The notes under the pieces are model-generated. The model ran no database searches and was not told where the DNA came from. It saw only the letters and a program-made list of their open reading frames with translations. Below are positions 37,579 through 59,966 of a DNA stretch of 64,000 nt, piece by piece. Every line of letters starts with the position of its first letter. The first letter of the stretch is position 1. The DNA lies in NCBI RefSeq assembly GCF_000710615.1, contig NZ_JDTH01000008.1, positions 1-64,000 on the forward strand, written 5' to 3'. The translations under genes were made by a program, and so were the position numbers. The stretch is from Haladaptatus cibarius D43. Lineage in GTDB: Archaea > Halobacteriota > Halobacteria > Halobacteriales > Haladaptataceae.

Positions 37579-37659
37579 TATCCCACACTGGGGACAGTCG
37601 TAGCCGAATCGCTTTCGTTGACACGGGCCATCAGCGACACTGGTACCGATTGCGATTGG

Positions 37660-39451: not shown

Positions 39452-39575
39452 AGGGGGTGAAATTCTACCGAGAGGCCCAATAAAGCTTTCTCTGCAACCG
39501 AAACCAGACCCAAATTTCATCGACCCCTGCCGTACAGAGAGTTTAAAAAGGTCGATGAAGAACTCACCTTAGCCG
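39452..39575 (-). promoter_or_regulatory. Leader of CRISPR array 1
   Basis: Read on the minus strand, this segment shares blocks with the leader of array 2: CTTCATCGACCTTTTTAAA, then GAGAAAGCTTTATTGGG, then AATTTCACCCCCT directly before the first repeat. The TTTTTAAA element (39542-39549) is the likely TATA box. It begins right after the end of cas2. Confidence 0.85.
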
Positions 39576-39590: not shown

Positions 39591-39863
39591 TCAGAGAACG
39601 TTCGACTGTTCGTCTGGCGGGGTCACTCCGAGGTCGGTGATGTTCCCCAAACATGATTCACAGAGGCGGTATATCCGAATCCGGTCGCCGTCTTCTGGGT
39701 CGATATGCGATTCCAACTCGTCCTGCAGTTCGACGCGCTGAGTCTTCGTTATTTCGAGTTCGAATACGCTGTACTGCTGCCACGCCCCGTATCGCTGGAG
39801 CGTTTGATAGACGCGGCGGCGGTTCGAGTCATCACTGACGTCATACACGATTGCGAGGCGCAT
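39591..39863 (-). CDS. cas2: CRISPR-associated endonuclease Cas2
   Basis: 90 residues, the standard Cas2 length. Starts MRLAIVYDVSDDSNRRRVYQ, a ferredoxin-like fold with the conserved early Asp, and ends in a short tail. Cas2 joins Cas1 in the integrase complex that inserts new spacers. It starts 2 bp after the end of cas1 and is the last gene of the leftward operon; the array 1 leader follows. Confidence 0.95.
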   Translation of the reverse strand: MRLAIVYDVSDDSNRRRVYQTLQRYGAWQQYSVFELEITKTQRVELQDELESHIDPEDGDRIRIYRLCESCLGNITDLGVTPPDEQSNVL

Positions 39864-39865: not shown

Positions 39866-40861
39866 TTATCGGGTGAATGTAAGCGCGTGGTAGTCGTCCA
39901 ATTCACCGACGATGGCTTTCCGGAGGAGGATGACCTGCTGGCGAATCGCCTTTCTCCGACTCACCGAATAGTCGAAATACGGATGCGTGAACTCCTCTTT
40001 CATGTAGTTGTCAAACTTCGAGAGATAGGTTTTGAATGCCTCGTCACGAAGGCGATTGTCCCGATTGAAGTCGTCGTGGGTAATCGTTCCGCGATTCACG
40101 AGGCGAGTGACGAACGCATCGCAGAAACTCGTTCGGAACTCTTCTTGGAGGTCGAGCGCGAGCGACGGTTTTCCATGGCGGTCTGCATGCAGAACACCGA
40201 GGAAGGGGTCGAGGTTGTACTGCCGGAGGCCACTCAGTACTTCGTTTTTCATCATCACGTAAGTCAGCGAGAGGAGTGAGTTGATGTGGTCTTCCGGAGG
40301 CCGTTTCGTCCGCTTCTCGAACGTCCAGCCGTCTGCGAGTGTTTCGTCCAAGCGCGAAAAGTAGCGTTCGGCAGCCTCACCTTCGGTTCCCCGGAGCTCG
40401 TCCTTGTTCGTCGCGTTTTCAGCACGCACACCGAGATCTTTCAGCAAATCGGTTCCGTGAACCCCTTTCCGGCCGAGAAGCGTTCGTCCGTTGCGAATCT
40501 TCGCGGCAATCATCGCGCAAGCAATGGCGAGCTCATCGTCCGACGAGAGGGCGTATTGTGCGCGCCGAACCTCTGCGATGGTGTTTTTCTCAGGGACGAA
40601 ACTCCCACGGTACTTGCCATGCTGGGTGAAATAGTTCAGGACAATGCCGTGTTCGTTCGCTCGTGCGACGAATGGTGTGCTGAAGTTCACCCCACCGAAG
40701 ACGTTGATCGTGTCGAGTTGTTCCGTGGGATACGAAACGAGTTTGTCTCCGTCACCGTCCACATCCCAGACGACGATTCGGCCTCCATCGGTTCGAACCT
40801 GCGTTCCCTGTTTCGTGATGTAGACGACCGATTCATCGAACATTCCTTCAGTTGCTTTCAT
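39866..40861 (-). CDS. cas1: CRISPR integrase Cas1
   Basis: 331 residues from the ATG at 40861 (MKATEGMFDESVVYITKQGT). The frame is open upstream to 41122, but that part overlaps cas4 and does not look coding. Metal ligands of the Cas1 active site are visible: Glu in RGTEGEAAERYF, His in LGVLHADRHGK and Asp/Glu in LALDLQEEFR. Integrates spacer DNA at the leader-repeat junction together with Cas2. Overlaps cas4 by 14 bp. Confidence 0.95.
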   Translation of the reverse strand: MKATEGMFDESVVYITKQGTQVRTDGGRIVVWDVDGDGDKLVSYPTEQLDTINVFGGVNFSTPFVARANEHGIVLNYFTQHGKYRGSFVPEKNTIAEVRRAQYALSSDDELAIACAMIAAKIRNGRTLLGRKGVHGTDLLKDLGVRAENATNKDELRGTEGEAAERYFSRLDETLADGWTFEKRTKRPPEDHINSLLSLTYVMMKNEVLSGLRQYNLDPFLGVLHADRHGKPSLALDLQEEFRTSFCDAFVTRLVNRGTITHDDFNRDNRLRDEAFKTYLSKFDNYMKEEFTHPYFDYSVSRRKAIRQQVILLRKAIVGELDDYHALTFTR

Positions 40862-41456
40862 TGTGTATCTCCTGCTCGAATGCAGTGCCCGTTGCTTTGT
40901 CGGGTTCAAGCATCGCGGTTTCTTCTGGCATACAGTACTCGCGGGCCGAACAGGCCTCGCACTTTTTTCGATTGTCAGTAAGTGGTGGAACCGATTCGAC
41001 AGACATCGACCGCATCGCTTCGATTTGTTCCTGAACCGTTTTGCGGTGGTTTTCAGTGATTGGAATATGCATCCGCTGATCGGTTTCGTAGAGGTAAATC
41101 GCCCCTTCACGAACAGATTCACCGAGATGTTCTTCTAGTAGCAGACAGTATCCTGCGAGTTGGAGTTCGTCGCTCCGATAATAGTCGCCACTTTCGGCAC
41201 GTTTCCGTTCGACGGGAACGACTTGGTCATTACCGAGATCCAGCACATCGATCTTGCCCTTGAGTCCCAACTCCTCGGATTCGAGATAGAGTTCATTCAA
41301 CCAGTTGCCGCGAGTCGACTGATTTTCGTGTTTCGTTTTGCCTTCAACCCGATAGTAGTTCCGTCCCTGCGTATTGTAGAAGTGTAAATACCAGTAGCGA
41401 CGTGGACAGTAGCTGTATTGGTTGAGATCGGAGACGTTGACGAGTTCTGAAGTCAT
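40848..41456 (-). CDS. cas4: CRISPR-associated Cas4 exonuclease
   Basis: 202 residues. Iron-sulphur cluster Cys are at the N-terminus (YSYCPRRYW) and the C-terminus (KKCEACSAREYC), and between them lies the RecB-like nuclease core GLKGKIDVLD, VVPVERKR and QLAGYCLLL. Cas4 trims prespacers and sets the PAM and orientation during adaptation. It overlaps cas3 by 4 bp and cas1 by 14 bp, so it is translationally coupled to both. Confidence 0.93.
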   Translation of the reverse strand: MTSELVNVSDLNQYSYCPRRYWYLHFYNTQGRNYYRVEGKTKHENQSTRGNWLNELYLESEELGLKGKIDVLDLGNDQVVPVERKRAESGDYYRSDELQLAGYCLLLEEHLGESVREGAIYLYETDQRMHIPITENHRKTVQEQIEAMRSMSVESVPPLTDNRKKCEACSAREYCMPEETAMLEPDKATGTAFEQEIHNESN

Positions 41457-43342
41457 ATTTGTCGGCGGTGAACCTCAATGGTCGGTGGTCCAGACCCCTC
41501 GTCACCAACGTCGATTTCGTACGTCGCTGTGGTGAGACGCCGTGGGACGATAGCGTCGGTGATGCGGACAACATCAAAGAATCGATGGAGAAGCTCGGTT
41601 GAAACGCCGAAATCGTCTTTTCGGCTCATGTGGTCGATTTTCGGGCGAATTTTGTCCTGGAGCGTTTTCTCGATCTTACCCGTCGGCTCGTCGTATCTCG
41701 TTGGTTCCGTCTCGTAAGCGGGGAGTCGGGCTGTTACAAGCGAAAGTGAGTTCTCGTCACTTGGCTTGACTCGGAGAACGGTTCCCTCTCGAACACAATC
41801 AATCTCGTACCCACGTAGTGTCCGACCGAGGTCGTACGTTGTCAGTCCGAGCCGGTCGCCGCGCGGATATTCGATTTGTGCCGAGAGTGAACGACCTCGA
41901 AGCCCCCGAAATACTTCGAAACATTCCTTTGTGAATTTGAGGAGTTTATTTACTTCCGCATCGTAAGGTTTCCCTCCAAGACCATCAATTGCGTCCAGTT
42001 CGTCGTTCACGTCCTCAATGAAATTTCGCCAGCGGCCGTACTGGTCGTTGTTGGATGCAAGGTCTTCGAATATTTCGGGATTAAACCAACCATAGCCATC
42101 TTCCCGGACTTCAATCCCATATGCACCTCGAAGCCCCATCAGGTCACCGAGGGCTTTTGGAGCCATTCGTTCTTCTTGCAAGCCATCGTATACTTGCTTG
42201 GTGAATGTCTGGAAATCGACATCAGTTCCCCAAGGCCCTTGTCCCAGACCGTAAATGTGGACTGTCGCCTCGGATGCTCGCCCAGCACGTCCAAATCGCT
42301 GGAGGAATGCACTGGGCCGGGTCGGATTTTCCATGATGAGCGTCTCTACGTCGTAGTCAAGCCCAACCTCACCCTTACTGGTCGTGTTCAGTATATAGAA
42401 CGTTTCGTCGTCAAGGTCAACCAGATCATCGTTCGTGTCGAATCCATTATCTTTTTCGGTGTGTTTGAAGACGGTTTCATACTCGTCCGCCAGATAATCG
42501 TGAAAGTCGTTGCTGTCTTTCGCACTGTTGAACGCAAGTACGACACGGGGTTCATCGTGGTCGTCTGTTGTATTGATCTCTTCGTGGAGTAACTGCGCAA
42601 CTGCATCGCGTACTTCCACGATTCGGCGTTCCTCGTGCCGAACAACTTCGACGCGCTGTCGAAACCGGTCTCCGTTTTCGACATACTCTGCTTCGATATT
42701 CTGTACGTCGAGTTGCAACTGCGTCCGAACGAACTCGACGAAATCTTCGTTCGGCGTTGCGGATGCGAGTATAATCTTCGGATCGACTTGTCGTTCCGAA
42801 ATTATTTTGATTTGCAGGAGAAGTCCGCTTGCCGCCAGTGGATCGTAGAAGTGGAATTCGTCGTAGACGATGGCGTTGAAGTTGTCAAAAAATCGCATCG
42901 CATGATCACCGCTGTACATATCCTGAATCGTCGCTTGCAAAATATCAGGGTTCGTTAGGATGACATCGTAATCGTTCTCATACGTATCGAGGAAGCCAAG
43001 TAGGTTTTCAGTCCGTCTGTGAGCGTAGCCTTCCAGCGTTTCACCGTTCAATACGGCGGCATCGACTTCGGCATTCACGAACCGCTCGTGCTGTTGACGA
43101 AGCAATGCGTTCGTCGGATAGACGAGGAGTGTAGGTTGATGAACGCTTATAAGTTCGTGGAACGTCGCTGTCTTCCCCGCACCAGTGGGTGCGCGAACCA
43201 CAGAAACAGGCGTATTTCCGTCGTGAACCCACTCGACAACGCGGTTTTGAAATGACCGTGCCTGATCGAAACCAAGATCTCTCAGTCCGTACTTCGCAGG
43301 TTCAGTCGCTAAGGATGCATCCCCGACGGTGAACTGATTCAT
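41453..43342 (-). CDS. cas3: Cas3 helicase without HD domain, type I-D
   Basis: 629 residues, a superfamily 2 helicase: Walker A VVRAPTGAGKTATF (about 48-61), motif II IVYDEFHFYD, motif III LASATP, motif VI LQRFGRAGRA. There is no HD nuclease domain at either end, as expected in type I-D, where the HD is on Cas10d. The enzyme unwinds target DNA recruited by the effector complex. It overlaps csc1 by 1 bp and cas4 by 4 bp. Confidence 0.92.
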   Translation of the reverse strand: MNQFTVGDASLATEPAKYGLRDLGFDQARSFQNRVVEWVHDGNTPVSVVRAPTGAGKTATFHELISVHQPTLLVYPTNALLRQQHERFVNAEVDAAVLNGETLEGYAHRRTENLLGFLDTYENDYDVILTNPDILQATIQDMYSGDHAMRFFDNFNAIVYDEFHFYDPLAASGLLLQIKIISERQVDPKIILASATPNEDFVEFVRTQLQLDVQNIEAEYVENGDRFRQRVEVVRHEERRIVEVRDAVAQLLHEEINTTDDHDEPRVVLAFNSAKDSNDFHDYLADEYETVFKHTEKDNGFDTNDDLVDLDDETFYILNTTSKGEVGLDYDVETLIMENPTRPSAFLQRFGRAGRASEATVHIYGLGQGPWGTDVDFQTFTKQVYDGLQEERMAPKALGDLMGLRGAYGIEVREDGYGWFNPEIFEDLASNNDQYGRWRNFIEDVNDELDAIDGLGGKPYDAEVNKLLKFTKECFEVFRGLRGRSLSAQIEYPRGDRLGLTTYDLGRTLRGYEIDCVREGTVLRVKPSDENSLSLVTARLPAYETEPTRYDEPTGKIEKTLQDKIRPKIDHMSRKDDFGVSTELLHRFFDVVRITDAIVPRRLTTATYEIDVGDEGSGPPTIEVHRRQI

Positions 43343-44043
43343 TACAACACCTCCGGAACAACGTGTTCGCGAACGAACTCGGGACTCGCCCCGACGAAGT
43401 GCTGAAGTCGCGGGTCGTTTCCACGGCGGAACGCCGAACTGTGTTCCATTAATTCGGTGAGTGTACTCTTGTTGAGGTCATAGACCTCCGACAGTAGATA
43501 CTTGTTGAGGACGAGGGTATCCTGCTCGCACTCTTGGGCTCGAAACTCACCGGTCTGTTTGACACCCATGCGGAAGAATGGGCGTGTAGGGATCGGTTTA
43601 TCGCTCCAGACAGTAAACTCGAACGTCGACCCAGGGGCGAGTCCAATATAGTTTCGAATCGTCTGATAAGCCGCACCGGAGTCCTCCAAAATCGAGGGAA
43701 CTGATTTGTCGCCAGTGATCTGTTTTGCGAGGTCTGTGTCGTTCGTCGTGAAGTTTCGCTCGGATCGGTAGTCCGTACTACGGAAGGTTCGTTCGTCGGC
43801 TTCCACCGCAACTGGCCGCATGTCCGAAACGAAAAACGACGCATCCCGTAAGTGCGAGTAATCCGGAGTCGTCGCACGCTCGCCGAGTTCGACGTATCGT
43901 TTCTCCATCTCGAAGTACCGATAGCCGAGTGCATGCATGAGCGCAGTTGCGGATAACGTTGGCTGTGTACGGATTGCACGCCCCTCCGAGCTGGAGTAGA
44001 ACAAGGGCGTGTAGAGCGTCGCCTCAAACGTCCGTTCAATCAT
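43342..44043 (-). CDS. csc1: Cas5d subunit Csc1 of type I-D effector
   Basis: 233 residues. Starts MIERTFEATLYTPLFYSSSE, the typical opening of Csc1, with a RAMP-like fold and FRMGVKQTGEFRAQ late in the chain. Csc1 caps the crRNA 5' handle in the I-D complex. Overlaps csc2 by 8 bp and cas3 by 1 bp. Confidence 0.88.
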   Translation of the reverse strand: MIERTFEATLYTPLFYSSSEGRAIRTQPTLSATALMHALGYRYFEMEKRYVELGERATTPDYSHLRDASFFVSDMRPVAVEADERTFRSTDYRSERNFTTNDTDLAKQITGDKSVPSILEDSGAAYQTIRNYIGLAPGSTFEFTVWSDKPIPTRPFFRMGVKQTGEFRAQECEQDTLVLNKYLLSEVYDLNKSTLTELMEHSSAFRRGNDPRLQHFVGASPEFVREHVVPEVL

Positions 44044-44986
44044 CGGTTTGGTTGAAGCTCTCCCGTGCGTCTTCCATTAGGTGGCTAAACTCCGCTTGGA
44101 GTATCTCATCGGCATCATCGGCTTCACGGGCGGCGACCGCATGGAGTTCGTGGAACCAGCTTGGGACATCCTCGGCACCCTCGAACGTACCATAAACATT
44201 CCAGTCGTCACGACGCACTGCTTCGATATACTCACCGAGGCTTTCTTCGAGTCGGTCGTCTTCACCGTGATATTCCAGTAGGAATTCACCCGTAGACAAT
44301 GACGTGTCGTGGTCACCGAGAATGATGCCGAGAACGGTATTTCGAATGTTTCGCCCTGTCCGTGTCTCCCGTGCGCCGTACTTACCGGTGTTCAGGATAT
44401 TGTGGAGTACGTACAGCAACATCGGTCCGGTCGCCGCTTCCAGCGTGATAAAGTGAATGAAGTCACTACCGGGCTGAACTTTCACGAAGTCGAACAAAGC
44501 CTGAGATTGGTTTTGCTCGTCGTCCTGCATTGTCCCAGTTTCGTAGACCGCATTCCGAGTTTCTTTGTTCATCAAGTCGTACTCGTTGTTCGTGTACGTG
44601 TAGCCCTCAACGACCCGAGACTTGATTGCGAAATCTTGGCTGCCAGTTCCAGCTAACCCGTACGTGAGCGTACCAACGTTTAGTGACTTATCAAGGTCAT
44701 CGGGTTCGTTATAGGTGTAATCTTCGTGGATGAGCGAGCCATCCTCGTCCAGTCGCCGGAGTAGGTCAAGACCGGTCAGTCGTTCCTTGCTAGTGAACTT
44801 CTCGCCGTTTACCTGTGCATGAAGTTTGTCGTCGAACTCTTGTGTTTCCGCACGGTCGTGTTCCGAGTTCCGAAACAGAGTCGGTTCGGTCACATCGCGT
44901 CTTACGATGAGCGTGACGGACGGCTTTCGGGTTCGGTAGATGCTGTGCGATTCGACGAGTCCAGTATCGGGGTAATCAAGCGTCAT
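44036..44986 (-). CDS. csc2: Cas7d backbone subunit Csc2 of type I-D effector
   Basis: 316 residues. Features in line with Csc2: TVTLIVRRDVTEPTLFRN early, the central SRVVEGYTYTNNEYDLMNKE, and RTGRNIRNTVLGIILGD. Several copies coat the crRNA spacer part. Position between cas10d and csc1 is the standard I-D order. It overlaps cas10d by 4 bp (ATGA). Confidence 0.9.
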   Translation of the reverse strand: MTLDYPDTGLVESHSIYRTRKPSVTLIVRRDVTEPTLFRNSEHDRAETQEFDDKLHAQVNGEKFTSKERLTGLDLLRRLDEDGSLIHEDYTYNEPDDLDKSLNVGTLTYGLAGTGSQDFAIKSRVVEGYTYTNNEYDLMNKETRNAVYETGTMQDDEQNQSQALFDFVKVQPGSDFIHFITLEAATGPMLLYVLHNILNTGKYGARETRTGRNIRNTVLGIILGDHDTSLSTGEFLLEYHGEDDRLEESLGEYIEAVRRDDWNVYGTFEGAEDVPSWFHELHAVAAREADDADEILQAEFSHLMEDARESFNQTDD

Positions 44987-45345
44987 TGTTGGTTTTCGAA
45001 GTGTTGGTCAACGGTATAGTAGTACGTGTTCACGAGCGCGTCTTCCCAGTCCGAGAGTTTCTTCAGGTCGGTGAGTTTTTCCTCTTCGAGGTAGGATTGA
45101 ACGCTCTCAACGAACTGTTGGGCCTCTTCAGGATCTGGGTAGCCTGCATACTTTTCGCGGTGTGCTGCCGCATACACCTGTCCTTGAACGTATTCTTCCT
45201 GCTGGTCACCTTCCAAGCCTTGGCTCTTAGCAGTCAGAATCGCGTCAAGCGTTTCACGGAATATTTTCGTCTTCTTGTACTTGCTGTCGAGGCTGGATGT
45301 GCCGAGAAGGTCGATACCTCGTTCGGCAACGGTTTTCATATTCAT
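44983..45345 (-). CDS. Possible internally initiated Cas11d small subunit within cas10d
   Basis: In type I-D systems the small subunit is made from an internal start in the 3' end of cas10d. A candidate here is the ATG at 45345 (MNMKTVAERGIDLLG), giving about 120 mainly helical residues to the cas10d stop. Two in-frame ATGs lie close together. I see no strong ribosome site in front, so the exact start is uncertain. Confidence 0.4.
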   Translation of the reverse strand: MNMKTVAERGIDLLGTSSLDSKYKKTKIFRETLDAILTAKSQGLEGDQQEEYVQGQVYAAAHREKYAGYPDPEEAQQFVESVQSYLEEEKLTDLKKLSDWEDALVNTYYYTVDQHFENQQ

Positions 45346-47418
45346 AAGTGAATCTGCGTGGTAGTTCTCGAAATACTCCCGAAGATCCGGAAGTCGAGTA
45401 GCGTTGTCATGGTTGACAACAGCGAAGTTGGCGATGCTGTGGAACGTATCGCGGTCGAGATGCAGGTACGAATTCGATAAATTCGCGTCCTGCCCAACCA
45501 TGCTCATGATTTTGAACAACTGGAGCGCACAGCGAAGGTGAGAATCGGTTCGCTCGTCCGTCACAAAGTCGGGAAGCGGGCCGAATCGTTCCACCTCGTC
45601 CAGTCTGAGGAGTTCTTGCGGTCGGGTGGCCTCCTCGTCAGTGAAAACCGTATCCGCGCTCTCGAAGCGCGTAAACGGTCGTCCTACGACCACCTTCATC
45701 CCGGCATCTTGGGCAGTTTGCATCACCTGCCGGATGACTGCCATCCGGTGGTTTTCACCCAACACGTAAATCGGCTGGATGAAATACTGCGAACTGACGA
45801 AGCTCGTAGTAACATCCGTATCATCTAGTTCGTCTGCATCTCCTTGGACGACGTTGCCTACTCGCCGACTACGGACTCGGACATCACCGAGGAAATCATC
45901 AAAGTAAAAGTACGCAACTTCAAGTGAATTGTTTGTACTTACGTCGCTTCGTTCACAGATGTCCGCAAGAAGCGCGTATTCCAGATTGCAGACCTCACAG
46001 ATTGATTTATACTTCGCGTGCGGGGGAACCCGACGCGAATATTCCTGTGTCCGGTAAATTGCACTCAACCCTTTCTGATACTTCGTATCGGTCTCAGTTC
46101 CACAGAGGAAACACATTTCCTCTTTCACGCCGAGATCGGGCGTTATCAACCCCTCAAAGAATCGGTCAACGACTGACCCGATCGCATCGCTCTCTGGTTC
46201 AAGATCATCATGGAGTTCAGGACGAACCTCTCGAGCGAATGATTTGAGGAAATCAGCGTGTTCCTCGTAGTGTTGAACGAGATACGCCACGAAGTGGAGT
46301 TTGACTTTTTGGACACCCTGTTCGTCTTTAATCCGGTCGTAGGCGTCTTGCACGTCGGGGTCATCGAAGTCCGACCGACCATCAACGTAGACAGACTTTG
46401 CCAAAGTCGGGAAGTACTGGTTAAACTCATCGGGAATATACTCGAAAGGTTCAACGCCAGCAGATCCTCGCTCTAGCAAGTCACGGAACGCATCGGCGAT
46501 AATTTCCTCCTTATCCTCGGGTTTAATTTCGACTTCCGAGAGGATATCGTAGTCAAATGAATTCCAGTTGAGTTTGCACGAGAACGAGAACTCAGACTTG
46601 GTACCAATGTTTTCTGCGGCGGATTTCTCAACAATCTCACGGAGGTCATCCCGCTCGATTGCCTCCCCGAGGTATAGAATCTCGTTCGGTGAACTCCCGA
46701 TTACGACGCCGCTTGCTTTGCGGTCGGTCTCGCCAGCGATAACTTCTTTTGCCGTTCCTAGAAGCACATCGTTTAGCACCGGTTGTTCGAGTTCGGTGAA
46801 CTCGATACGATGGACGGTTTTATCGCCGAAGTGTGTAGCGAGTTTGTGTTCAACGCCTTCAACACCGTCTCGAAGGGCAACAGAAGCAGTCTGGTCGCCA
46901 ATACGGCAATACCGCGCTAAACCGGAAAATTCGGTGTCAGTACCGCGCGTCTCTCGACTATCCTCACGGGTTTCTGTCCGCTGGACGAGATAATGGAGGT
47001 CGTCACGGTAGCCATCGCCGAGAAATTCCTCGATACCGAAGTCGTCGCCCTCTCCTTCTTCGGGATTGAAATAGTAGTCGAACGCCTCACTGGAGTTTCC
47101 ATCCGCATCGAAACCGTACGCCTCGCGCACGTACTTGTTTGTATCGTGGAGTGCGAGTGCCGATGCGAGGACTTTGATGTCTTCCTCGTAATCTGCGACA
47201 TCCTCATCAGTGCCAACCGCGTTAAATACGAACGTATTCACGCCGATGGTTACAGCGTTGAGGATGTGCGCTGCAAGCGAGGAGTTCGCCGATGAATCGA
47301 CCTTGGCATCGTATGCACCTGCGGCGTTGATGACGTTTTCGTAGAGGTTTTGACCCTCAACAAGCCATTTGTGCGCCTTGTAGGTGTCACGGTGTTTTGA
47401 ACTTTTTAATTCCGACAT
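44983..47418 (-). CDS. cas10d: Cas10d (Csc3) large subunit with HD nuclease domain
   Basis: 811 residues. The N-terminal HD domain contains SLAAHILNAVTIG and LALHDTNKYV (about residues 85-97). A zinc site CFLCGTETDT and CEVCNLEY lies in the centre, typical of Csc3. No GGDD cyclase motif is seen in the palm region. Cas10d is the I-D large subunit, recognises the PAM and supplies the target-cleaving HD nuclease that Cas3 lacks. Starts 2 bp after the small ORF that leads the operon. Confidence 0.93.
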   Translation of the reverse strand: MSELKSSKHRDTYKAHKWLVEGQNLYENVINAAGAYDAKVDSSANSSLAAHILNAVTIGVNTFVFNAVGTDEDVADYEEDIKVLASALALHDTNKYVREAYGFDADGNSSEAFDYYFNPEEGEGDDFGIEEFLGDGYRDDLHYLVQRTETREDSRETRGTDTEFSGLARYCRIGDQTASVALRDGVEGVEHKLATHFGDKTVHRIEFTELEQPVLNDVLLGTAKEVIAGETDRKASGVVIGSSPNEILYLGEAIERDDLREIVEKSAAENIGTKSEFSFSCKLNWNSFDYDILSEVEIKPEDKEEIIADAFRDLLERGSAGVEPFEYIPDEFNQYFPTLAKSVYVDGRSDFDDPDVQDAYDRIKDEQGVQKVKLHFVAYLVQHYEEHADFLKSFAREVRPELHDDLEPESDAIGSVVDRFFEGLITPDLGVKEEMCFLCGTETDTKYQKGLSAIYRTQEYSRRVPPHAKYKSICEVCNLEYALLADICERSDVSTNNSLEVAYFYFDDFLGDVRVRSRRVGNVVQGDADELDDTDVTTSFVSSQYFIQPIYVLGENHRMAVIRQVMQTAQDAGMKVVVGRPFTRFESADTVFTDEEATRPQELLRLDEVERFGPLPDFVTDERTDSHLRCALQLFKIMSMVGQDANLSNSYLHLDRDTFHSIANFAVVNHDNATRLPDLREYFENYHADSLMNMKTVAERGIDLLGTSSLDSKYKKTKIFRETLDAILTAKSQGLEGDQQEEYVQGQVYAAAHREKYAGYPDPEEAQQFVESVQSYLEEEKLTDLKKLSDWEDALVNTYYYTVDQHFENQQ

Positions 47419-47420: not shown

Positions 47421-47663
47421 TTAAACCTTCTTTACAGTGGATAGTGCCACAACACGTCGCCCAGGCTTTTCTTTCTTTGAATTACAATTTACAATTTGAT
47501 ATTCGTGTCCAGTCTTAAGTGGTATCCCGTCTCTTACAAACTCAACTTTTTCCCCAGTTTCCAGTTTCATCAGACCGATTTGATTATCTTGGCCGGTTTC
47601 CTGTTGATAGATCCCTCGCACTTGAAAAGACATTCCGAGTAAGTCTGATGCTTGAATTCCCAT
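47421..47663 (-). CDS. Small unknown protein heading the I-D cas operon
   Basis: 80 residues from ATG 47663 (MGIQASDLLGMSFQVRG). The frame stays open to 47855, but the TATA box (47690-47696) lies 30 bp before 47663, and the longer version would run through the regulatory segment, so the short start is preferred. Beta-rich pattern (SFQVRGIYQQETG, IGLMKLETGEKVEFVRDG, HEYQIVNCNS), like a minimal OB fold, with a basic tail. It ends 2 bp before cas10d. It is not a standard I-D gene; it could be a regulator, a small toxin or an accessory subunit. Confidence 0.6.
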   Translation of the reverse strand: MGIQASDLLGMSFQVRGIYQQETGQDNQIGLMKLETGEKVEFVRDGIPLKTGHEYQIVNCNSKKEKPGRRVVALSTVKKV

Positions 47664-47689
47664 TATATCTGAATAGAATAGACCCACGA

Positions 47690-47696
47690 TATTAAA
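47690..47696 (-). promoter_or_regulatory. TATA box of the type I-D cas operon
   Basis: TTTAATA on the minus strand, centred 30 bp upstream of the ATG at 47663, with a purine-rich upstream element. The spacing predicts a leaderless message starting at or just before the ATG. The crRNA-like target site begins 7 bp upstream of it. Confidence 0.6.
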
Positions 47697-47702
47697 TCTA
47701 GG

Positions 47703-47720
47703 GTGAAGGGAGTTAGCCTC
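47703..47720 (+). promoter_or_regulatory. Predicted target site of crRNA-like regulator in the cas promoter
   Basis: GTG (47703-47705) followed by AAGGGAGTTAGCCTC (47706-47720). The 15 bases match the guide of the element at 47767-47850 in 14 positions, with the single mismatch at position 6, a base that type I effectors flip out and do not read. GTG fits the GT-N type PAM reported for type I-D. The site abuts the upstream side of the operon promoter. Confidence 0.6.
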
Positions 47721-47742
47721 ATTCTCTCCCTTTCCACGGGAA

Positions 47743-47749
47743 TTATATA
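47743..47749 (+). promoter_or_regulatory. Putative TATA box of the crRNA-like RNA
   Basis: TTATATA on the plus strand. Initiation about 27 bp downstream would start the RNA at about 47773, just ahead of the repeat-like handle. Confidence 0.5.
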
Positions 47750-47766
47750 GTGTGTTAACAAATGAA

Positions 47767-47850
47767 GTACTAGGGAGTCTACAAGGGATTGAAACAAGGG
47801 CGTTAGCCTCGATATCACTGAAAACCCGTGCTTGGACTCCCAAATTCAAT
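47767..47850 (+). ncRNA. Predicted crRNA-like regulatory RNA (CreR/CreA type)
   Basis: A degenerate repeat carries GAAG, CTAG and the intact 11-base 3' end GGGATTGAAAC (47785-47795) found in array 2 repeats. It is followed by the guide AAGGGCGTTAGCCTC (47796-47810) and by a second weak repeat remnant with GAAAACCC at 47820-47827. Cas6 cleavage at the handle would release a short guide that matches the cas operon promoter about 90 bp away. Published CreA and CreR RNAs have this design (pseudo-repeat, partly matching guide, target in a nearby promoter) and sit in the same place, between cas6 and the effector genes. The 3' end is not defined. Confidence 0.6.
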
Positions 47851-47851
47851 A

Positions 47852-48721
47852 TCATAGATTCACCTGCACATTTCCACAGCCTCGAGCAACTGCACTTCCG
47901 ACGCCGGAATATTCGCCGAACAGAGCCAGGGCGACGACTGCGTTCTGTACGCTCTCGCTTGCATCCTTCAGCGCATACTCACAGCGACCAGTGAATCCCT
48001 GCCGGAAAATTGCACGGGATTCGTCGTCCTCGGTTCGAATGCGGTTCACCAGAACGCTGTGGGTATCGTACGCTCGTGCATCAGGTTTCTCGATTATATG
48101 TGCGAGCACGTCCTCGTCATCGATTGCGAGTTCGTGTTCGTCAGGAGCGGTACGATTCCATTTTCCACAGAGCGACTGGAAAACGGCGCGGCGGTGTGGA
48201 AACATTGTCGTCACGTCGCCCGCTTCCTCGATGCAAGTCGGGGTACGAAACTCCATTTCGATGGACGGATTGTCGTACTCGCTCGCCTGCGCGAGAAGGG
48301 CTTCGTGGCTCGTGTTTTCGCTCTCGAAAATCTCGACGTGGAGCGTTCCGTTCGTCAACTCCAACTCGTTGCCGTCCAACACGAGCGCACTCACGAGTGA
48401 CTGAAAGATGTCGTCGTCGCGTGAATCAACGATACCCAGCGACAGTTCGTACGAGCGGTCGCTTCGAACCGTTTTGTGATAGTCGCGGTTGCTGTTTCCA
48501 AACACACCAAGAAGACCGCTACTATGCAAACTGCCGAGCGGAGAGTCGTGGATGTGTTCGCTCACAGCTGCATCAACGTCATTGAGCGCCGCTAACAGCG
48601 CGCTGTAGACAGAGTACCCATCAGAGATGGGAACCGGAAACGTCTCCGTTGGGCGCACTGTGAGTGTGATCCGCCGAAGACGATGAGTGCCGGTCGTCGG
48701 TGTGGGAGTTGTCTGCGACAC
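47852..48721 (-). CDS. cas6: CRISPR RNA endonuclease Cas6
   Basis: 289 residues from a GTG start supported by a GGAG ribosome site a few bases upstream. The N-terminal HRLRRITLTVRP strand and the Gly-rich C-terminal loop GEYSGVGSAVARGCGNVQV are Cas6 hallmarks. Cas6 cuts the array transcript in the repeats, leaving the 8-nt ATTGAAAC handle, and would also process the crRNA-like RNA encoded just downstream of it. It has its own promoter (TTTATCA-like element near 48746-48752) and is separated from the main operon by about 190 bp. It is divergent from csa3. Confidence 0.9.
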   Translation of the reverse strand: MSQTTPTPTTGTHRLRRITLTVRPTETFPVPISDGYSVYSALLAALNDVDAAVSEHIHDSPLGSLHSSGLLGVFGNSNRDYHKTVRSDRSYELSLGIVDSRDDDIFQSLVSALVLDGNELELTNGTLHVEIFESENTSHEALLAQASEYDNPSIEMEFRTPTCIEEAGDVTTMFPHRRAVFQSLCGKWNRTAPDEHELAIDDEDVLAHIIEKPDARAYDTHSVLVNRIRTEDDESRAIFRQGFTGRCEYALKDASESVQNAVVALALFGEYSGVGSAVARGCGNVQVNL

Positions 48722-48854: not shown

Positions 48855-49502
48855 ATGCGAACCTACATCTCGCCAATCGGCTACGACAGTCGGCGCGTTA
48901 CCCGACCCATCCTGAGTAACGGTCTCGACGAAGGTGACCAGATTATTCTGTTGCGCCCAAACACCGAGAACGACGACCAGCGGGCCCGGAGCGCTATCCG
49001 AGATGTAACAGACCTGCTTGAAGAAATCGAGCCAGACGTGCAATTCGACAAAGAGGAAATCACATATGACGACCTCTCGAGTGCAGCATTGGAATGTAGC
49101 GATATTTTGCAGGCTGCAGACGGTGACCTCGTTGTAGCGCTTACAGGAGGGGCCCGCGAAATCCTCATCCCATTCGCACTCGCGTCGTTCATCCACGCTC
49201 CACGGATTCACCAGACGTTGACCTTCAGCGATGTTGATCAGCGTGTCCGCGAGTGGTCACTCCCGGTGTTGCAGGCACATGTGCCACGAAAGGCACACCA
49301 AACGCTGGCAGTGATTGCCGAGGCAGACGCCCCGCTTTCGATGTCCGACCTCACCGAGCAGATCGAGCAGTCGAAAAGTACGGCAACTCGCCACGTCGAG
49401 ACCTTGGCGGAAAACGAGGTGGTCACCACATTTAGAGACGGGAAAACGAAGTATGCCGAAATAACATTCACAGGGGAGTTGTTGCTTCGCGCGGGCGCGT
49501 GA
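48855..49502 (+). CDS. csa3: CARF-HTH transcription regulator Csa3
   Basis: 215 residues from ATG 48855; the frame is open upstream but that part reads through the divergent promoter. The N-terminal CARF domain (MRTYISPIGYDSRRV to about 125) has the GGAREILIPFALASF segment typical of the ligand pocket, followed by a winged HTH (APLSMSDLTEQIEQSKSTAT). Csa3 proteins control cas genes or array leaders in response to cyclic oligoadenylates. It lies between cas6 (divergent) and the array 2 leader that begins directly after its stop. Confidence 0.85.
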   Translation: MRTYISPIGYDSRRVTRPILSNGLDEGDQIILLRPNTENDDQRARSAIRDVTDLLEEIEPDVQFDKEEITYDDLSSAALECSDILQAADGDLVVALTGGAREILIPFALASFIHAPRIHQTLTFSDVDQRVREWSLPVLQAHVPRKAHQTLAVIAEADAPLSMSDLTEQIEQSKSTATRHVETLAENEVVTTFRDGKTKYAEITFTGELLLRAGA

Positions 49503-49621: not shown

Positions 49622-52600
49622 GTCGCAGAAGCTAGAAAACCCAGAACGGGATTGAAACCGGTCTACACGTCACGTCCCGTCCAACGTGTCACCAGTCGCA
49701 GAAGCTAGAAAACCCAGAACGGGATTGAAACAAAACAACCCTTACAATCCCTCAAGAGACCGAACAGAGTCGCAGAAGCTAGAAAACCCAGAACGGGATT
49801 GAAACACTATTTATAATTGTTGGGAAGTCTTCGACTGCATCTGGTCGCAGAAGCTAGAAAACCCAGAACGGGATTGAAACTCGTCGTAGACGACGCTGAC
49901 GACGTACTCGCCGAGTCGCAGAAGCTAGAAAACCCAGAACGGGATTGAAACCCGTCGATGCCGACGCTCCGCTTGCGCAAGTTCGAGCGTCGCAGAAGCT
50001 AGAAAACCCAGAACGGGATTGAAACTCGTGGGTCAGAAGAGCATCGCACCCCCGACAACGTCGCAGAAGCTAGAAAACCCAGAACGGGATTGAAACTATT
50101 GACGAAGACGACGACGGTGCCTGTGACCACCGTCGCAGAAGCTAGAAAACCCAGAACGGGATTGAAACTCCGGACCAAGGATGCACCCACATCATTTTGC
50201 TCCGGTCGCAGAAGCTAGAAAACCCAGAACGGGATTGAAACTCGTCTCTTTGAGTGAAGCGATGTTGCTGGCGACCGTCGCAGAAGCTAGAAAACCCAGA
50301 ACGGGATTGAAACAACTCTGTTTGAACAGTTGTGTTTCCGTCTGAATCAAGTCGCAGAAGCTAGAAAACCCAGAACGGGATTGAAACGGATTCCTTCTTG
50401 TCACGGATGTTCTCTCGCTTCTCAACGAGGTCGCAGAAGCTAGAAAACCCAGAACGGGATTGAAACTCGCGTGTCCTGATTGCATCGAAGAGATTACGGG
50501 AACTGTCGCAGAAGCTAGAAAACCCAGAACGGGATTGAAACGGAGTGCCCTTGTTCGAGCCATTGATGTTTGCATAGTCGCAGAAGCTAGAAAACCCAGA
50601 ACGGGATTGAAACCGGAACTCGTGCTTGTCGTCTCCGAGTCGTCATTCGTGTCGCAGAAGCTAGAAAACCCAGAACGGGATTGAAACGCGTAGGTCGTAA
50701 TACTCGGTACTGTCGTGAATCAGTGTCGCAGAAGCTAGAAAACCCAGAACGGGATTGAAACTCGGCGTCGTCGGAGTCGTCGGAGTCGTCGGAGGTCGCA
50801 GAAGCTAGAAAACCCAGAACGGGATTGAAACGGGTCACCCCGACACCATCGCACCCAATGCTGACCGGTCGCAGAAGCTAGAAAACCCAGAACGGGATTG
50901 AAACTCCAACCGTGTCTGAAGGTGCGCAAGAGTCCCCGCGTAGTCGCAGAAGCTAGAAAACCCAGAACGGGATTGAAACAATGCACAAAACGGCTCGCTC
51001 CGCGTGCTGGAACCGGTCGCAGAAGCTAGAAAACCCAGAACGGGATTGAAACTATTTTGTCGCCTGCTCCACCCTCCTCGAATCGGTGTCGCAGAAGCTA
51101 GAAAACCCAGAACGGGATTGAAACAACGGTTATTCCGCTCATCTTTTCCCTCTGTGTTTTTGTCGCAGAAGCTAGAAAACCCAGAACGGGATTGAAACTT
51201 TACACCCATTCTCGGGATTGTTGTACTGCATATCCGTCGCAGAAGCTAGAAAACCCAGAACGGGATTGAAACTTTGAAGGTCTTGTCATCACCGAAGCGA
51301 AACTCGTTGGTCGCAGAAGCTAGAAAACCCAGAACGGGATTGAAACTCGTCATCCACGGCGACACGCTCAAAGTCGAACGGCGGTCGCAGAAGCTAGAAA
51401 ACCCAGAACGGGATTGAAACGACAGACAGGGGCGGGGACAAATCCGTCTTGGTCTGGGTCGCAGAAGCTAGAAAACCCAGAACGGGATTGAAACGCTGTG
51501 GTTGTCGTGCCGCGTTTGTGCATTTGAGTCGCAGAAGCTAGAAAACCCAGAACGGGATTGAAACGGAGCGGAATCACCCTCGATTGTTCAAACAAGGAGG
51601 GTCGCAGAAGCTAGAAAACCCAGAACGGGATTGAAACAATCTGATGTCGTACTCAGTGACGCTCACTGCGGGTGTCCTCGTCGCAGAAGCTAGAAAACCC
51701 AGAACGGGATTGAAACTTGGGCCAACTGCCCGAGGAGTCGTTCACGTCGGTCTGTCGCAGAAGCTAGAAAACCCAGAACGGGATTGAAACGCGAAGGGGC
51801 AGAAGGCGCTCTCGCAAGACCGTCGAAGTCGCAGAAGCTAGAAAACCCAGAACGGGATTGAAACGTACACCCCGGTGCGGTCACATCGACCAGCGATGCG
51901 GTCGCAGAAGCTAGAAAACCCAGAACGGGATTGAAACTCTTCTGGTTCTGTCATGGATTCGTCTGTCTGCGAGGGTCGCAGAAGCTAGAAAACCCAGAAC
52001 GGGATTGAAACAGTTCGGGCGTGACAGGCGTCCCGTCCTCCGTTTCGAGTCGCAGAAGCTAGAAAACCCAGAACGGGATTGAAACAGTTCGGGCGTGACA
52101 GGCGTCCCGTCCTCCGTTTCGAGTCGCAGAAGCTAGAAAACCCAGAACGGGATTGAAACGGATCTCCTGAACGGTGGAGTACGACCCGCTGGCGGGTCGC
52201 AGAAGCTAGAAAACCCAGAACGGGATTGAAACGGTCGACGGACACGACGCCGAGCGGCCCGCGCGGGGTCGCAGAAGCTAGAAAACCCAGAACGGGATTG
52301 AAACGCTGTGCGTCCTGTGGCGGCACGGTCGAAACTGGTTTGTCGCAGAAGCTAGAAAACCCAGAACGGGATTGAAACCGATTTCTGCCATTTGAGACCT
52401 CTTAGATGATGTTGAGTCGCAGAAGCTAGAAAACCCAGAACGGGATTGAAACTGCTGGCCGTCGGTGACGGTCGCGGTCGCGGTCGGCGCGTCGCAGAAG
52501 CTAGAAAACCCAGAACGGGATTGAAACCGGTCTGCATCGTTCGCGGGACGAAGCGCGTGGGGTCGGTCGCAGAAGCTAGAAAACCCAGAACGGGATTGAA

Positions 52601-55010
52601 ACGAGAACGCGGCGGGGTATGGCACGTCGTTGACTGAGTCGCAGAAGCTAGAAAACCCAGAACGGGATTGAAACTGACATCCAGCGGGTTACACGCCCGT
52701 TGTACGAAAGTCGCAGAAGCTAGAAAACCCAGAACGGGATTGAAACAGGATGGCGAGGAGTCCGGTTTCAGCAGGGGAGACAGTCGCAGAAGCTAGAAAA
52801 CCCAGAACGGGATTGAAACTCTGTCATTCGCCATCACCCGACAGTTTCGCCATCGGTCGCAGAAGCTAGAAAACCCAGAACGGGATTGAAACAGTGTGCT
52901 ACATCGAAGGCATTCCCACGCTATCTCCTCGTCGCAGAAGCTAGAAAACCCAGAACGGGATTGAAACTCGTCATGACTCAGTTGTGGGGTTGTGTTGACT
53001 GTCGAGTCGCAGAAGCTAGAAAACCCAGAACGGGATTGAAACCTGGAACGACACCGCCGCGTCCAGCATCACCCGCAGTCGCAGAAGCTAGAAAACCCAG
53101 AACGGGATTGAAACAGGAGTGCGCCGGTCTTCTCGTCCATTCCTCGTTCGTCGCAGAAGCTAGAAAACCCAGAACGGGATTGAAACTGATTCACCCGTGA
53201 GTCCATTATTAAATATTCCTGACGTCGCAGAAGCTAGAAAACCCAGAACGGGATTGAAACTGCATGGCGCGCGCACTCGTCTCAACGGCCTTGCGGGTCG
53301 CAGAAGCTAGAAAACCCAGAACGGGATTGAAACATGTGACCGGAAAAGTCGCGCTTCCCTACGGGGTCTTGTCGCAGAAGCTAGAAAACCCAGAACGGGA
53401 TTGAAACCGCTATCAACCGGATTCGAGACGCAAACGACCAGGTCGCAGAAGCTAGAAAACCCAGAACGGGATTGAAACTTGCGTCCGGCAAGGGGGTGTC
53501 CTCGCGGTACTCCATGTCGCAGAAGCTAGAAAACCCAGAACGGGATTGAAACTGAGGCAGACGACTACAACCTTCGAGTCCCCGGATTGGTCGCAGAAGC
53601 TAGAAAACCCAGAACGGGATTGAAACAGCAGTTCGCTGTCGCGTCGGACGCCTCCCCACGGTCGCAGAAGCTAGAAAACCCAGAACGGGATTGAAACTCT
53701 TCTGGTTCTGTCATGGATTCGTCTGTCTGCGAGGGTCGCAGAAGCTAGAAAACCCAGAACGGGATTGAAACTCTTCTGGTTCTGTCATGGATTCGTCTGT
53801 CTGCGAGGGTCGCAGAAGCTAGAAAACCCAGAACGGGATTGAAACTGGCAGAGTTCGAACTTACGTTCGAGGTCACCTAGTCGCAGAAGCTAGAAAACCC
53901 AGAACGGGATTGAAACCGGACTGGCCTCCCTGCTCCCCCGACGTGCCTGTCGCAGAAGCTAGAAAACCCAGAACGGGATTGAAACCATTTGTAAACGGTC
54001 ATTGTTCTATTTCCAAATGTTCAGGGTCGCAGAAGCTAGAAAACCCAGAACGGGATTGAAACTCATCGCCTGCGTCGGTCGCACTCGCCGTCGCCTGGTC
54101 GCAGAAGCTAGAAAACCCAGAACGGGATTGAAACATGTGTCGGACTTGCAACATCGTCACGGAGTTCGGTCGCAGAAGCTAGAAAACCCAGAACGGGATT
54201 GAAACCGGATAAACACGATTCCGCTGTCTGTTCGCCCAGACGAGTCGCAGAAGCTAGAAAACCCAGAACGGGATTGAAACTGATTAAAGGAATGCGTGAT
54301 ATTGGTGAAATGCCAGTCGCAGAAGCTAGAAAACCCAGAACGGGATTGAAACAGGTCTTCGACTACCGAACGGAGGTTGTTGTCTCTCGCGTCGCAGAAG
54401 CTAGAAAACCCAGAACGGGATTGAAACGCGTTGGTCATCGTCGGATTGCTAGTTGTTATCGACGGTCGCAGAAGCTAGAAAACCCAGAACGGGATTGAAA
54501 CCGGGAGGTATCGCCGGTTGGTGTCAGGGTGGCGGAGTCGCAGAAGCTAGAAAACCCAGAACGGGATTGAAACGACTCTGCGAAACTCAGAGCGTTTGGC
54601 GCGGTCGTGTCGCAGAAGCTAGAAAACCCAGAACGGGATTGAAACACCGCGACATGAAGTTCGGGCGTCACGAGGGCAAGAGTCGCAGAAGCTAGAAAAC
54701 CCAGAACGGGATTGAAACAGGTCTTCGACTACCGAACGGAGGTTGTTGTCTCTCGCGTCGCAGAAGCTAGAAAACCCAAACCGGGATTGAAACGAAGAAG
54801 CGAAAGAAATCTCGAAATCGGCAAGCGCAAGTCACAGACGCTAGAAAGCCCAAAAAGGATTGAAACAGTTCCAACTCGCCGTTCTCAACGCCGCGAATCG
54901 GGTTACGGAAGCTAGAAAACCCAGCACGGGATTGAAACCGGATCAAGAAGGCGCTCGACGAGACGCTAATGAAGTTATGGAAGCTAGAAAACCCAGGACG
55001 GCATTGAAAC
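49622..55010 (+). CRISPR. CRISPR array 2, 71 good plus 3 decayed repeats
   Basis: Seventy-one repeats of 37 bp (last at 54757, two changes) and three degenerate ones at 54831, 54902 and 54974. The repeat starts GTCGCAGAAGCTAG, has a CCCAGAACGGG hairpin and ends GGGATTGAAAC; it differs from array 1 only in the hairpin. Spacers are about 33-42 bp. Transcription is rightward and decay is at the distal end, as expected. Some spacers are repeated: one three times (51938, 53698, 53772), one in tandem (52012 and 52086) and one at 54353 and 54719. The spacer at 50832-50867 also occurs in array 1. Confidence 0.97.
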
Positions 55011-55050
55011 CATTGTGATGACCCGGTACCGTGGAGTTCCGGTTCAGTAG

Positions 55051-55304
55051 ATGGTGCAACTCGAATACTGGGCCGCAGGCGAGTGGCGGGCCGTCGCGCG
55101 CTTCGACCACGACGGGGCGGGGCGGGCTACCGGACTGCAGTTCGGAGCGGCCTGCACATGGACATTCACCGACCCGATGGGACGCAGGTGGGGAAGCGCC
55201 GTGATTTTCCCGAGATTTCGCGTGCCGAAGGGCCGCGCTTTGCGGAAGAGTATTTACGACGCCACCACGAAAGATTAATCAGGAGGTTCGAAACGTGGCT
55301 GTAG
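55051..55304 (+). pseudogene. Frameshifted small haloarchaeal protein inside the array tail
   Basis: The first frame gives MVQLEYWAAGEWRAVARFDH, then near 55120-55150 the sense moves to another frame that continues HMDIHRPDGTQVGKRRDFPE and ends EEYLRRHHERLIRRFETWL. Together they resemble a widespread haloarchaeal protein of about 80 residues (DUF7718-like, from memory). One frameshift separates the halves. It lies between two blocks of decayed CRISPR repeats. Confidence 0.55.
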
Positions 55305-55507
55305 AAGACCACCCCAACAGTGTACGCGAGTTCATGGAACGCGAATCGGACGAGTACGAGCCAGCCAGTGACGACCAACTGGACGACTGGCTTGCCGAGG
55401 CTCCTGACCCTGACGAGATTTTCGACGCCATCGAAGCCGACTACGGCTGTCCACCCGACAGTGCCCGTGACGAGTCACAGAGCGGCTACGACCCAACAGA
55501 GCACTAG
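55295..55507 (+). CDS. Small acidic protein, partner of the preceding gene
   Basis: 70 residues from a GTG that overlaps the end of the preceding frame by 10 bp, which suggests translational coupling. Very acidic (MERESDEYEPASDDQLDDWL, then EAPDPDEIFDAIEADYG). Pairs of this kind are common in haloarchaeal genomes; the small acidic partner may be an antitoxin-like binding protein, but this is a guess. Confidence 0.5.
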   Translation: MAVEDHPNSVREFMERESDEYEPASDDQLDDWLAEAPDPDEIFDAIEADYGCPPDSARDESQSGYDPTEH

Positions 55508-55550
55508 CTGGGTGGTTCCACGGTTCTTACAGCACTAAAAAAGTGAGCTA

Positions 55551-55809
55551 GTTGTAGACACTAGAAAACTCAGCACGGGATTGAAACTTGAGACAAATCG
55601 TTCCCACCTGATAACCCGCGTCACGTCGCAGACACTAGAAAACCCAGAACGGGATTGAAACACCAGTTTGATAAATCCAAGCGCCTGTCCGAGCCGTGGT
55701 CGCAGACGCTAGAAAAGCCACGACGGCATTGAAACTAATCACCCCCCGAAGCGGTTGAACCACGATGTTCCAGTCGCAGAAGCTAGAAAACTCAGAACGG
55801 GTTTGAAAC
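55551..55809 (+). CRISPR. Detached decayed tail of array 2, 4 repeats
   Basis: Four degenerate 37-bp repeats at 55551, 55625, 55699 and 55773 in register with the usual 37-bp spacers. The copy at 55699 has AAAAGCCACGACGGC, the hairpin of array 1 rather than of array 2. A segment of about 540 bp with two small genes separates this block from the main array. Confidence 0.9.
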
Positions 55810-58671: not shown

Positions 58672-59053
58672 GTGAATCAGTGAATCCATGAGTTACTGAA
58701 ATCAGGATGCTTTGAATTTGTGACAAAAAGGATTCTGTGAATCCAATAACGAAGTGACTAACGAGGTTCATTGAATCCATGAATCAATGATTTATAGAAC
58801 CAATGAATCCAAGAAGCACTGAGCCAGTGACACAGGGAAATCCAGATATTCAGAATCGAGGAATCATAGAATCAATGATTCAAAGAGCGTGGAAAATACA
58901 GAGTTAATGAATCAAAGAATCAGTGATTCCCCATAGGCAAACCAAATTTTTAGACTTCAGTAACCTAAACTGCTTAATTAGAACTTTTAAAATCAAAAAG
59001 CACAACGAAATGTCTGACGTGGATTTATGAGTCATTGATTCAATGATTGAATT
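58672..59053. repeat. Iteron field in front of parA
   Basis: AT-rich non-coding DNA with many copies of a TGAATC-A/C-ATGA unit, for example at 58679, 58770-58790, 58803, 58861-58881 (GAATCATAGAATCAATGATT), 58907-58929 and 59030-59048. Several are inverted with respect to each other (TGATTC and GAATCA). One further copy, ATGAATCATTGATTC, lies just after the partner gene at about 60402. The arrangement suggests a centromere or operator bound by the partition proteins. Confidence 0.65.
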
Positions 59054-59965: not shown

Positions 59966-59966
59966 T

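Follow-up and report, generated by a model that had tools for sequence, protein, structure and literature searches.

A Putative CreR-Type Autorepression Guide in a Haloarchaeal Type I-D CRISPR–Cas Locus

Introduction

Can a type I-D CRISPR–Cas system restrain its own effector operon with a crRNA-like RNA encoded between its genes? The question is raised by a 64,000-nt stretch of the genome of Haladaptatus cibarius D43 (contig NZ_JDTH01000008.1, positions 1–64,000; hereafter, the window), where a guide-like segment and a site matching it lie between cas6 and the effector operon. The element is very likely a CreR-type autorepression guide for the I-D effector, acting on the effector-operon promoter. 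Its anatomy, the co-variation of guide and target, the PAM, the spacing, the identity of the handle, and the repeated gain or loss are observed; in the absence of RNA or expression data, its transcription, processing by Cas6, binding by the effector, repression, and response to crRNA competition are inferred only. If this reading is correct, RNA-guided self-repression extends to a type I/III hybrid subtype, and the locus provides a natural case of guide–target compensatory evolution, i.e., strong evidence of function without experiment.

Organization of the Type I-D Locus

The window belongs to an 84-kb contig of a haloarchaeal genome of 3.93 Mb. The joint presence of Cas10d, Csc2, Csc1, and Cas3′ in one locus identifies it as type I-D (PADLOC models). 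The genes follow each other on the minus strand in the order cas6 (47852–48721), a small ORF (47421–47663), cas10d (44983–47418; PADLOC Cas10d, E 0), cas7d or csc2 (44036–44986), cas5d or csc1 (43342–44043), cas3′ of type I-D (41453–43342), cas4 (40848–41456), cas1 (39866–41122), and cas2 (39591–39863). PADLOC also recognized cas6, cas7d, cas5d, and cas3′; the mechanical frame of cas1 overlaps cas4, its start being probably placed too early. The cas6 gene lies upstream of and outside the operon presumed to be under control of the guide, and a csa3-like CARF regulator (48855–49502, plus strand; PADLOC) is divergent from it.

Both flanks of the locus harbor arrays: the main I-D array (49622–55661, plus strand), with 70 exact copies of the repeat GTCGCAGAAGCTAGAAAACCCAGAACGGGATTGAAAC plus variants, and a second array of 25 repeats (37655–39456, minus strand). 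The repeat stems of the two arrays differ in a compensatory manner, CCC/GGG in the former and GCC/GGC in the latter; in a related locus, L018, both arrays possess the GCC/GGC stem. The spacers of the main array had no match in phage records, hence no PAM could be derived for it. Cas10d itself lacked a PDB sequence match below E 1.1, an NCBIfam match, and a Pfam match above chance, and no relative of it was found in viral contigs by a search that sees close relatives only. Elsewhere in the window, the region 58674–62049, with short-period direct repeats, a ParA-like gene (59054–59965), and an Orc1/Cdc6 gene (60712–62049), is possibly a replicon with its own origin.

The Guide and Its Target

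The guide and its target sit between the cas6 stop (47852) and the small-ORF start (47663); a mechanical ORF reaching 47855 overlaps the guide, and the small ORF was taken as 47421–47663. All parts of the element are read on the plus strand. The handle GGGATTGAAAC (47785–47795), identical to the 3′ end of the I-D array repeat, ends a degenerate first repeat, psiR1, which is probably transcribed from 47770 to 47795, the start being inferred from a TATA-like box. Directly after the handle comes the guide, psiS (47796–47819), reading AAGGGCGTTAGCCTC at 47796–47810, in line with a reading made from sequence only. The same reading had reported a GTG and a 14-of-15 match about 90 bp away, and this was reproduced: behind the PAM GTG (47703–47705), the target AAGGGAGTTAGCCTC (47706–47720) is identical to the guide in 14 of 15 positions, with the sole mismatch at guide position 6 and 90 bp from guide start to target start.

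Such a match was not produced by shuffling. When the 432-bp stretch 47421–47852 was dinucleotide-shuffled 3,000 times, the best PAM-preceded match was 12 of 15 (in one shuffle) and 14 was never reached; without the PAM requirement, the best was also 12 of 15 (25 of 3,000). The 13-base core AAGGGNGTTAGCC occurs in the 3.93-Mb genome only twice, in the guide and in the target, and GTN followed by positions 1–5 and 7–9 has a single occurrence in the 64-kb window. A lone GGGATTGAAAC is not rare per se (about 1.9 expected per genome), and three further copies exist in the genome outside the array and the guide. Within 1.5 kb of each of the three, no target behind GTN has one seed mismatch or fewer; for one of them, a GTN-preceded candidate with two seed mismatches was noticed 908 nt off.

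The initial description of the repeat as isolated was only partially correct. While GGGATTGAAAC does precede the guide, a second degenerate repeat, psiR2 (47820–47841), follows it and keeps at 47820–47827 the motif GAAAACCC, which represents the middle of the array repeat and begins 24 nt after the guide start. The window element is, hence, a mini-array, with the guide between two degenerate repeats, not a lone repeat. The degeneration is considerable: of the 37 nt located 5′ of the guide, 15 are the same as in the repeat, 11 of them being its 3′ end. Since psiR1 lacks the CCC/GGG hairpin of the array repeat, Cas6 processing in the window is not assured. The Rfam search of 47600–47900 gave no match up to E 1.

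Co-Variation in Related Loci

Relatives were collected by Cas10d searches of overlapping sets of 293, 391, 392, 125, 9, 146, and 170 genomes, as well as GTDB contigs and plasmids, which yielded 26 non-redundant full-length or near-full-length I-D loci. Left out were copies of a locus present in two collections or near-identical plasmids (L018, L019, L020, L025, L034, and L058, equivalent to L003, L026, L010, L007, L029, and L036, respectively; L022, L023, and L057 with L014; L024 with L027) and fragmentary Cas10d matches (genomes G085, G364, G374, G433, and G463, and the stub L017 of G225). The scan accepted handles within one mismatch of GATTGAAAC and targets within 600 nt having a GTN PAM and at most one mismatch in positions 1–5 and 7–11; guides with other handles would be missed, and sites before N were skipped. 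For those loci taken with 1.5-kb flanks, the view was limited to cas6 and some 600 bp in front of it, so guides lying farther away would be missed there.

Across the 37 loci fetched, which contained 265 handle-like sites when duplicates and arrays are counted, 13 hits were obtained. Ten of these represent five distinct loci with one geometry: the window (two hits), L004, L019/L026, L014/L022/L023, and L024/L027. The remaining three, in L013, L020, and at a second site of L019, are stray hits without the shared geometry. A subsequent scan covered ten loci (eight new) and contributed L057, from the plasmid group of L022, and an orphan guide in L056. Halostella pelagica and Natronoglomus mannanivorans are among the carriers. 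Overall, guide and target were found in 5 of the 26 loci, a guide in 6, and neither in 20, within the fetched flanks. All five complete loci have the PAM GTG (in the context GGTG), the mismatch at position 6, and a handle-to-target distance of 81–84 nt. In each of the five loci examined, psiR1 and psiR2 flank the guide, psiR1 ending with GGGATTGAAAC or ..AAT and psiR2 keeping (G/A)AAAACCC 24–27 nt after the guide start. No such element was revealed in positions 1–22000 of the type I-D plasmid pSYSA of Synechocystis (two spacer-versus-array hits only), where the repeat and the handle differ.

The five loci hold four unlike guide–target pairs. The four guides, AAGGGCGTTAG, CTAAGCGGTTA, CTGAGCGATAT, and AGTGGCAGTGC, match the seeds of their own targets at 10, 9, 10, and 10 of 10 positions, respectively, although pairwise the unlike guides share just 2–6 of 10 seed positions. 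With 39 of 40 seed positions matched, the own pairing is the best of all 24 possible pairings, the next best reaching 32; with four lineages, a permutation of this kind can reach no better than 1 in 24. The sole exception to the full seed match is L004, with a mismatch at guide position 8. All four guides have G at position 5, C at position 6, and T at position 9, a constancy of sequence that hints at common descent followed by compensatory change. The expectation that guide and target would co-vary in relatives was, thus, borne out in five of the six loci with a guide, despite the differences between the lineages; the sixth lost its target by deletion.

The pairing pattern conforms to the known rules as well. 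In L014/L027, it comprises exactly positions 1–5 and 7–11, followed by mismatches at 12 and 13, and pairing at 1–5 and 7–11 is the CreA rule found by mutation in haloarchaea (PMC8501985, available in part). At position 6, each of the four guides has C, and the target base varies. The mismatch in all five loci is consistent with an unpaired position without being a proof, as free drift alone gives a mismatch in three cases out of four. The earlier suggestion that this position is not needed for pairing agrees with the accessible parts of PMC10212523 and PMC8501985.

Folding of the precursors was less uniform. In the window, GACTCCC of psiR2 (47835–47841) can pair with GGGAGTC of psiR1 (47773–47779), closing the guide in a long hairpin (z −2.43, a value reached by 3 of 200 shuffles). 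The other four folded precursors were unremarkable (z −0.12 for L004, −0.28 for L026, −0.68 for L014, and −1.26 for L056). A stem at the same offset (−23/+37) is present in L027 and L056, and the best psiR1–psiR2 stems of L004, L026, and L014 are at the chance level. As a feature of the element, the closing stem is suggestive only.

Inferred Promoters of the Operon and of the Guide

The inferred promoter of the effector operon (47689–47705, minus strand), assigned by eye, consists of the TATA-like ATTTAATAT and the upstream BRE-like CACCCTAG, which contains the complement of the PAM. The TATA box of the operon is most likely the AT-rich box at 47689–47697, situated 26–34 nt before the ATG of the small ORF, as judged by eye. 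Another TATA-like box, TATATAAT (47742–47749), is located on the opposite side of the target from the operon; stronger-looking, it seems by eye to fit, in reverse, the guide's own promoter better than that of the operon, the inferred box of the guide gene being at 47743–47750 (plus strand). The claim that the target lies next to the operon TATA box is, thus, best referred to the AT-rich box, with the more conspicuous TATATAAT assigned by inference to the guide gene.

In the operon sense, the target in each of the five target-bearing loci ends with CAC, the PAM complement, and is followed by an AT-rich box: CCTAGATTTAATAT in the window, CTCCCCTAGATTTTAG in L004, CCTAGGCAATTATT in L026, CTAAACTATATG in L014, and CTAAAGCATATATG in L027. 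The small ORF starts about 26–35 nt past this box in the three loci carrying it, and the operon transcript would be nearly leaderless there, provided that the boxes inferred by eye are the true ones. In L014/L027, which lack the small ORF, cas10d starts roughly 100 nt beyond the box and not directly after it. Thus, all five targets precede the cas10d operon and have an AT-rich box at their side, without mapped transcription start sites. AT-rich boxes are also visible upstream of the guide in the other loci examined for psiR1 and psiR2. The inferred layout of the operon promoters resembles the one described for CreA of H. hubeiense, where the PAM lies inside the complement of the BRE (PMC8501985, seen in excerpts).

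Proposed Mechanism

According to the proposed mechanism, a small plus-strand gene between cas6 and the operon would give rise to a crRNA-like RNA with the layout psiR1–guide–psiR2, from which Cas6 is inferred to free a short guide with the I-D handle ATTGAAAC. The expected RNA would begin with AUUGAAACAAGGG, its start AUUGAAAC (AUUGAAAU in Halostella) being followed by the guide. Presumably loaded into the Cas10d–Cas7d–Cas5d complex, the guide would direct it to recognize GTG and to pair with guide positions 1–5 and 7–15. The bound site adjoins the predicted BRE/TATA of the operon comprising the OB-protein gene, cas10d, csc2, csc1, cas3′, cas4, cas1, and cas2, and the bound complex may keep TFB/TBP or the polymerase off this promoter.

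The pairing would be too short to call in cleavage, so that binding without cutting is anticipated. This inference comes from type I-B, where a 24-nt spacer repressed its target and interference and priming disappeared (PMC10989794, partial text). For CreA, 10 seed pairs have been proposed as the minimal match (PMC8501985, partial text). A fall or inhibition of the effector, or its diversion to ordinary crRNAs, would release the operon; by analogy, this would constitute a feedback loop in which less free effector yields more operon. Lying outside the loop, cas6 would remain available for guide making.

The Small Protein with a Predicted OB Fold and the Presumed Object of Control

The first unit past the target in three lineages is an 80–85-aa protein coupled to cas10d, predicted in the window (80 aa, first gene of the operon) to have an OB fold. 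Its counterparts in L004 and L019, both of 85 aa, each share 21% identity with the window protein. The ORF is separated from cas10d by a 2-nt gap in the window and overlaps it by ATGA in L004 and L026. AlphaFold, supplied with an alignment of three sequences only, returned a five-strand barrel with the best pLDDT of 81.8 (76.4, 65.9, 62.1, and 43.4 in the other models). Foldseek placed OB folds at the top, namely RPA70N and an archaeal OB domain, with E values of 0.0048 and weaker and none at 0.001 or better; VIA-align retrieved PriB, SSB, and RPA at Z 8 to 9.3. There was no Pfam match up to E 1, no PADLOC match of the window copy, and only weak PHROGs matches (E 0.33 and 0.049). Of 292 genomes searched with a profile of the protein, only that of the window gave a match, the sample presumably not including the other two carriers. 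From these models, binding of nucleic acid is a natural guess for its function. The autorepression reading also points to an undescribed OB-fold protein, found here only together with the guide.

The protein raises the possibility of a guard of the CreTA/CrePA type, with the guide chiefly silencing the OB-fold protein, which would harm the cell or the invader upon effector loss or inhibition, and with the control of cas10d as a by-product. The occurrence of the protein in three of the four guide lineages (the other two copies each with 21% identity to that of the window), the restriction of its profile matches to the window's genome among 292, its place as the first gene past the target, and the precedent of CrePA with a protein toxin in the available part of a review (PMC12737573) are all compatible with it. 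Yet this reading is unlikely: the small ORF is joined to cas10d, so it could not be released without cas10d, the guide and target of L014/L027 occur without any small-protein gene, and the predicted OB fold would point to a binder of nucleic acid, not to a toxin.

Complementarity of the guide to the sense strand leaves room for a reading in which the I-D effector is directed to the operon mRNA instead of the promoter DNA. The guide would indeed pair with a transcript originating from the upstream TATATAAT (47742–47749), and, in the part of PMC10212523 at hand, type I-D is credited with ssRNA binding and with cleavage of single-stranded nucleic acid by Cas7d. However, GTG precedes the target in all five loci, while single-stranded binding has broader flank needs (same source, same limitation), and the AT-rich box is on the operon side of the target in all five, so the target would fall outside the transcript. 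Targeting of the mRNA is, consequently, quite unlikely.

Which Effector Uses the Guide

The genome also possesses, on contig 10 (3082–10270), a type I-B Cas7 (Csh2) gene and an array (GTTACAGACGAACCGTAGTCGGGTTGAAGC). The effector of this system would be a conceivable user of the guide, its Cas7 being encoded there and I-B being the system of the known haloarchaeal CreA. Two features make it hardly credible. The guide carries the handle of the I-D arrays, ATTGAAAC, and not GTTGAAGC, with which the I-B repeats of the genome end; the PAM is GTG, not the TTC of haloarchaeal I-B (PMC8501985, partly accessible). The type I-D PAM has been reported as GTN in Synechocystis and GTH in Microcystis (PMC10212523 and PMC9123187, both partly accessible). 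The GT-N assignment made initially was, therefore, upheld, as GTG fits the GTN of Synechocystis, but it falls outside the GTH of Microcystis (PMC10212523, in part). The last option, a functionless relic in which a mini-array decays and the promoter match survives by descent, is barely tenable: the guide without target in L056 and the absence of the cassette from 20 of the 26 loci accord with it, but decay would not preserve 39 of 40 paired seed positions while the guides diverge at most positions.

Relation to Known Systems

The comparisons in this section rest on partial texts of the cited sources. Autorepression by CreR is stated for types I-B, I-E, and V-A (PMC13131331). The window element would share with CreR a crRNA-like RNA from a mini-array beside the cas genes, a partial match to a presumed cas promoter, and negative feedback that would be read out by the effector and the crRNA supply. 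It differs in that the effector is the type I/III hybrid I-D complex with the PAM GTG, that only the effector–adaptation operon and not cas6 would be controlled, and that this operon opens, in three lineages, with an OB-fold protein accompanying the guide. With CreTA of haloarchaeal I-B systems, it has in common the psiR1–psiS–psiR2 layout with degenerate repeats, the pairing at positions 1–5 and 7–11 with 6 skipped, and a PAM adjoining the BRE, here an inferred one (PMC8501985, PMC9458426). In contrast to CreTA, whose guide silences a small toxic RNA acting by sequestration of a rare tRNA, the presumed object of control in the window is a cas operon. In CrePA, CreA silences a protein toxin (PMC12737573), and the window guide would likewise repress a protein gene; unlike in CrePA, one guide lineage lacks this protein, which is otherwise coupled to cas10d, and no toxicity data exist for it. 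RNA anti-CRISPRs and solitary repeat units of phages also represent repeat units outside arrays (PMC10651486), whereas the window unit is inside a cas locus, together with a second repeat and a cas target that it matches.

In PMC13131331, ‘type I-D’ appears solely in a reference title; the available parts of reviews on CreR/CreTA (PMC12737573, PMC12948488, PMC8730458) contain no mention of ‘I-D’, and that of a review on type I-D biology (PMC10212523) deals with protein regulators only.

The initial impression that no I-D case had been described holds for the literature searched, where no I-D autorepression guide was found; it cannot be extended to a 2023 survey by Shmakov et al., which the search did not cover and which could contain one. 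According to its abstract, this survey is said to concern mostly type I and V-A systems, so an I-D entry is not excludable.

Gain, Loss, and Evolution of the Cassette

In 20 of the 26 loci, as read, cas6 runs into cas10d directly or via a short gap. On the Cas10d tree, well-supported branches force no fewer than five gains or losses of the guide (four in the same count for 22 loci), with the direction, gain or loss, left unresolved by the tree. Carriers and non-carriers are neighbors in the pairs L004–L003, L026–L007, and L056–L035. L056 has a nearly identical guide and retains the mini-array, but a 141-bp deletion has removed the target and the operon promoter, and cas10d is again near cas6 (G448 contig 1, 1300–1500). 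This locus represents a natural loss step and counts against the guide being always in use; as far as the fetched flanks show, the cassette is dispensable for I-D function (20 of 26 loci lack it). The four guide–target pairs, the empty site of L007 versus L026, and the target-deletion mutant L056 would, if the autorepression reading is correct, make up a natural test bed.

In L026 (1008–1486) and L004 (minus strand), a second copy of the final 18 bp of cas6 stands at the end of the small ORF, 461 bp start to start in both, with 18/18 and 16/18 identical positions, respectively; no such copy was seen by eye in the window. This would fit either an insertion of the cassette accompanied by a duplication or a copying of the cas10d start region. 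A broader scenario can be offered only tentatively, being rather doubtful as a whole: a compact cassette (461 bp between the two 18-bp copies in two lineages) inserted between cas6 and cas10d would provide the effector operon with a self-repressed RNA-guided promoter, the OB-fold protein, released along with Cas10d upon depletion or blockage of the effector, would act with Cas10d as a single-strand binding partner or as a counter to inhibitors, and the cassette would have spread or been lost as a unit, with the guide–target pair rewritten each time.

In a minor observation from the same collection, a 5.4-kb contig labelled Spirochaetaceae (L021) carries a haloarchaeal-type I-D cas10d, its label being probably a binning error. 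L014/L027, in turn, have a 289-bp gap without an OB-protein ORF and still display the target ahead of cas10d, from which it follows that the feature shared by the guide-and-target loci is the presumed control of the cas genes.
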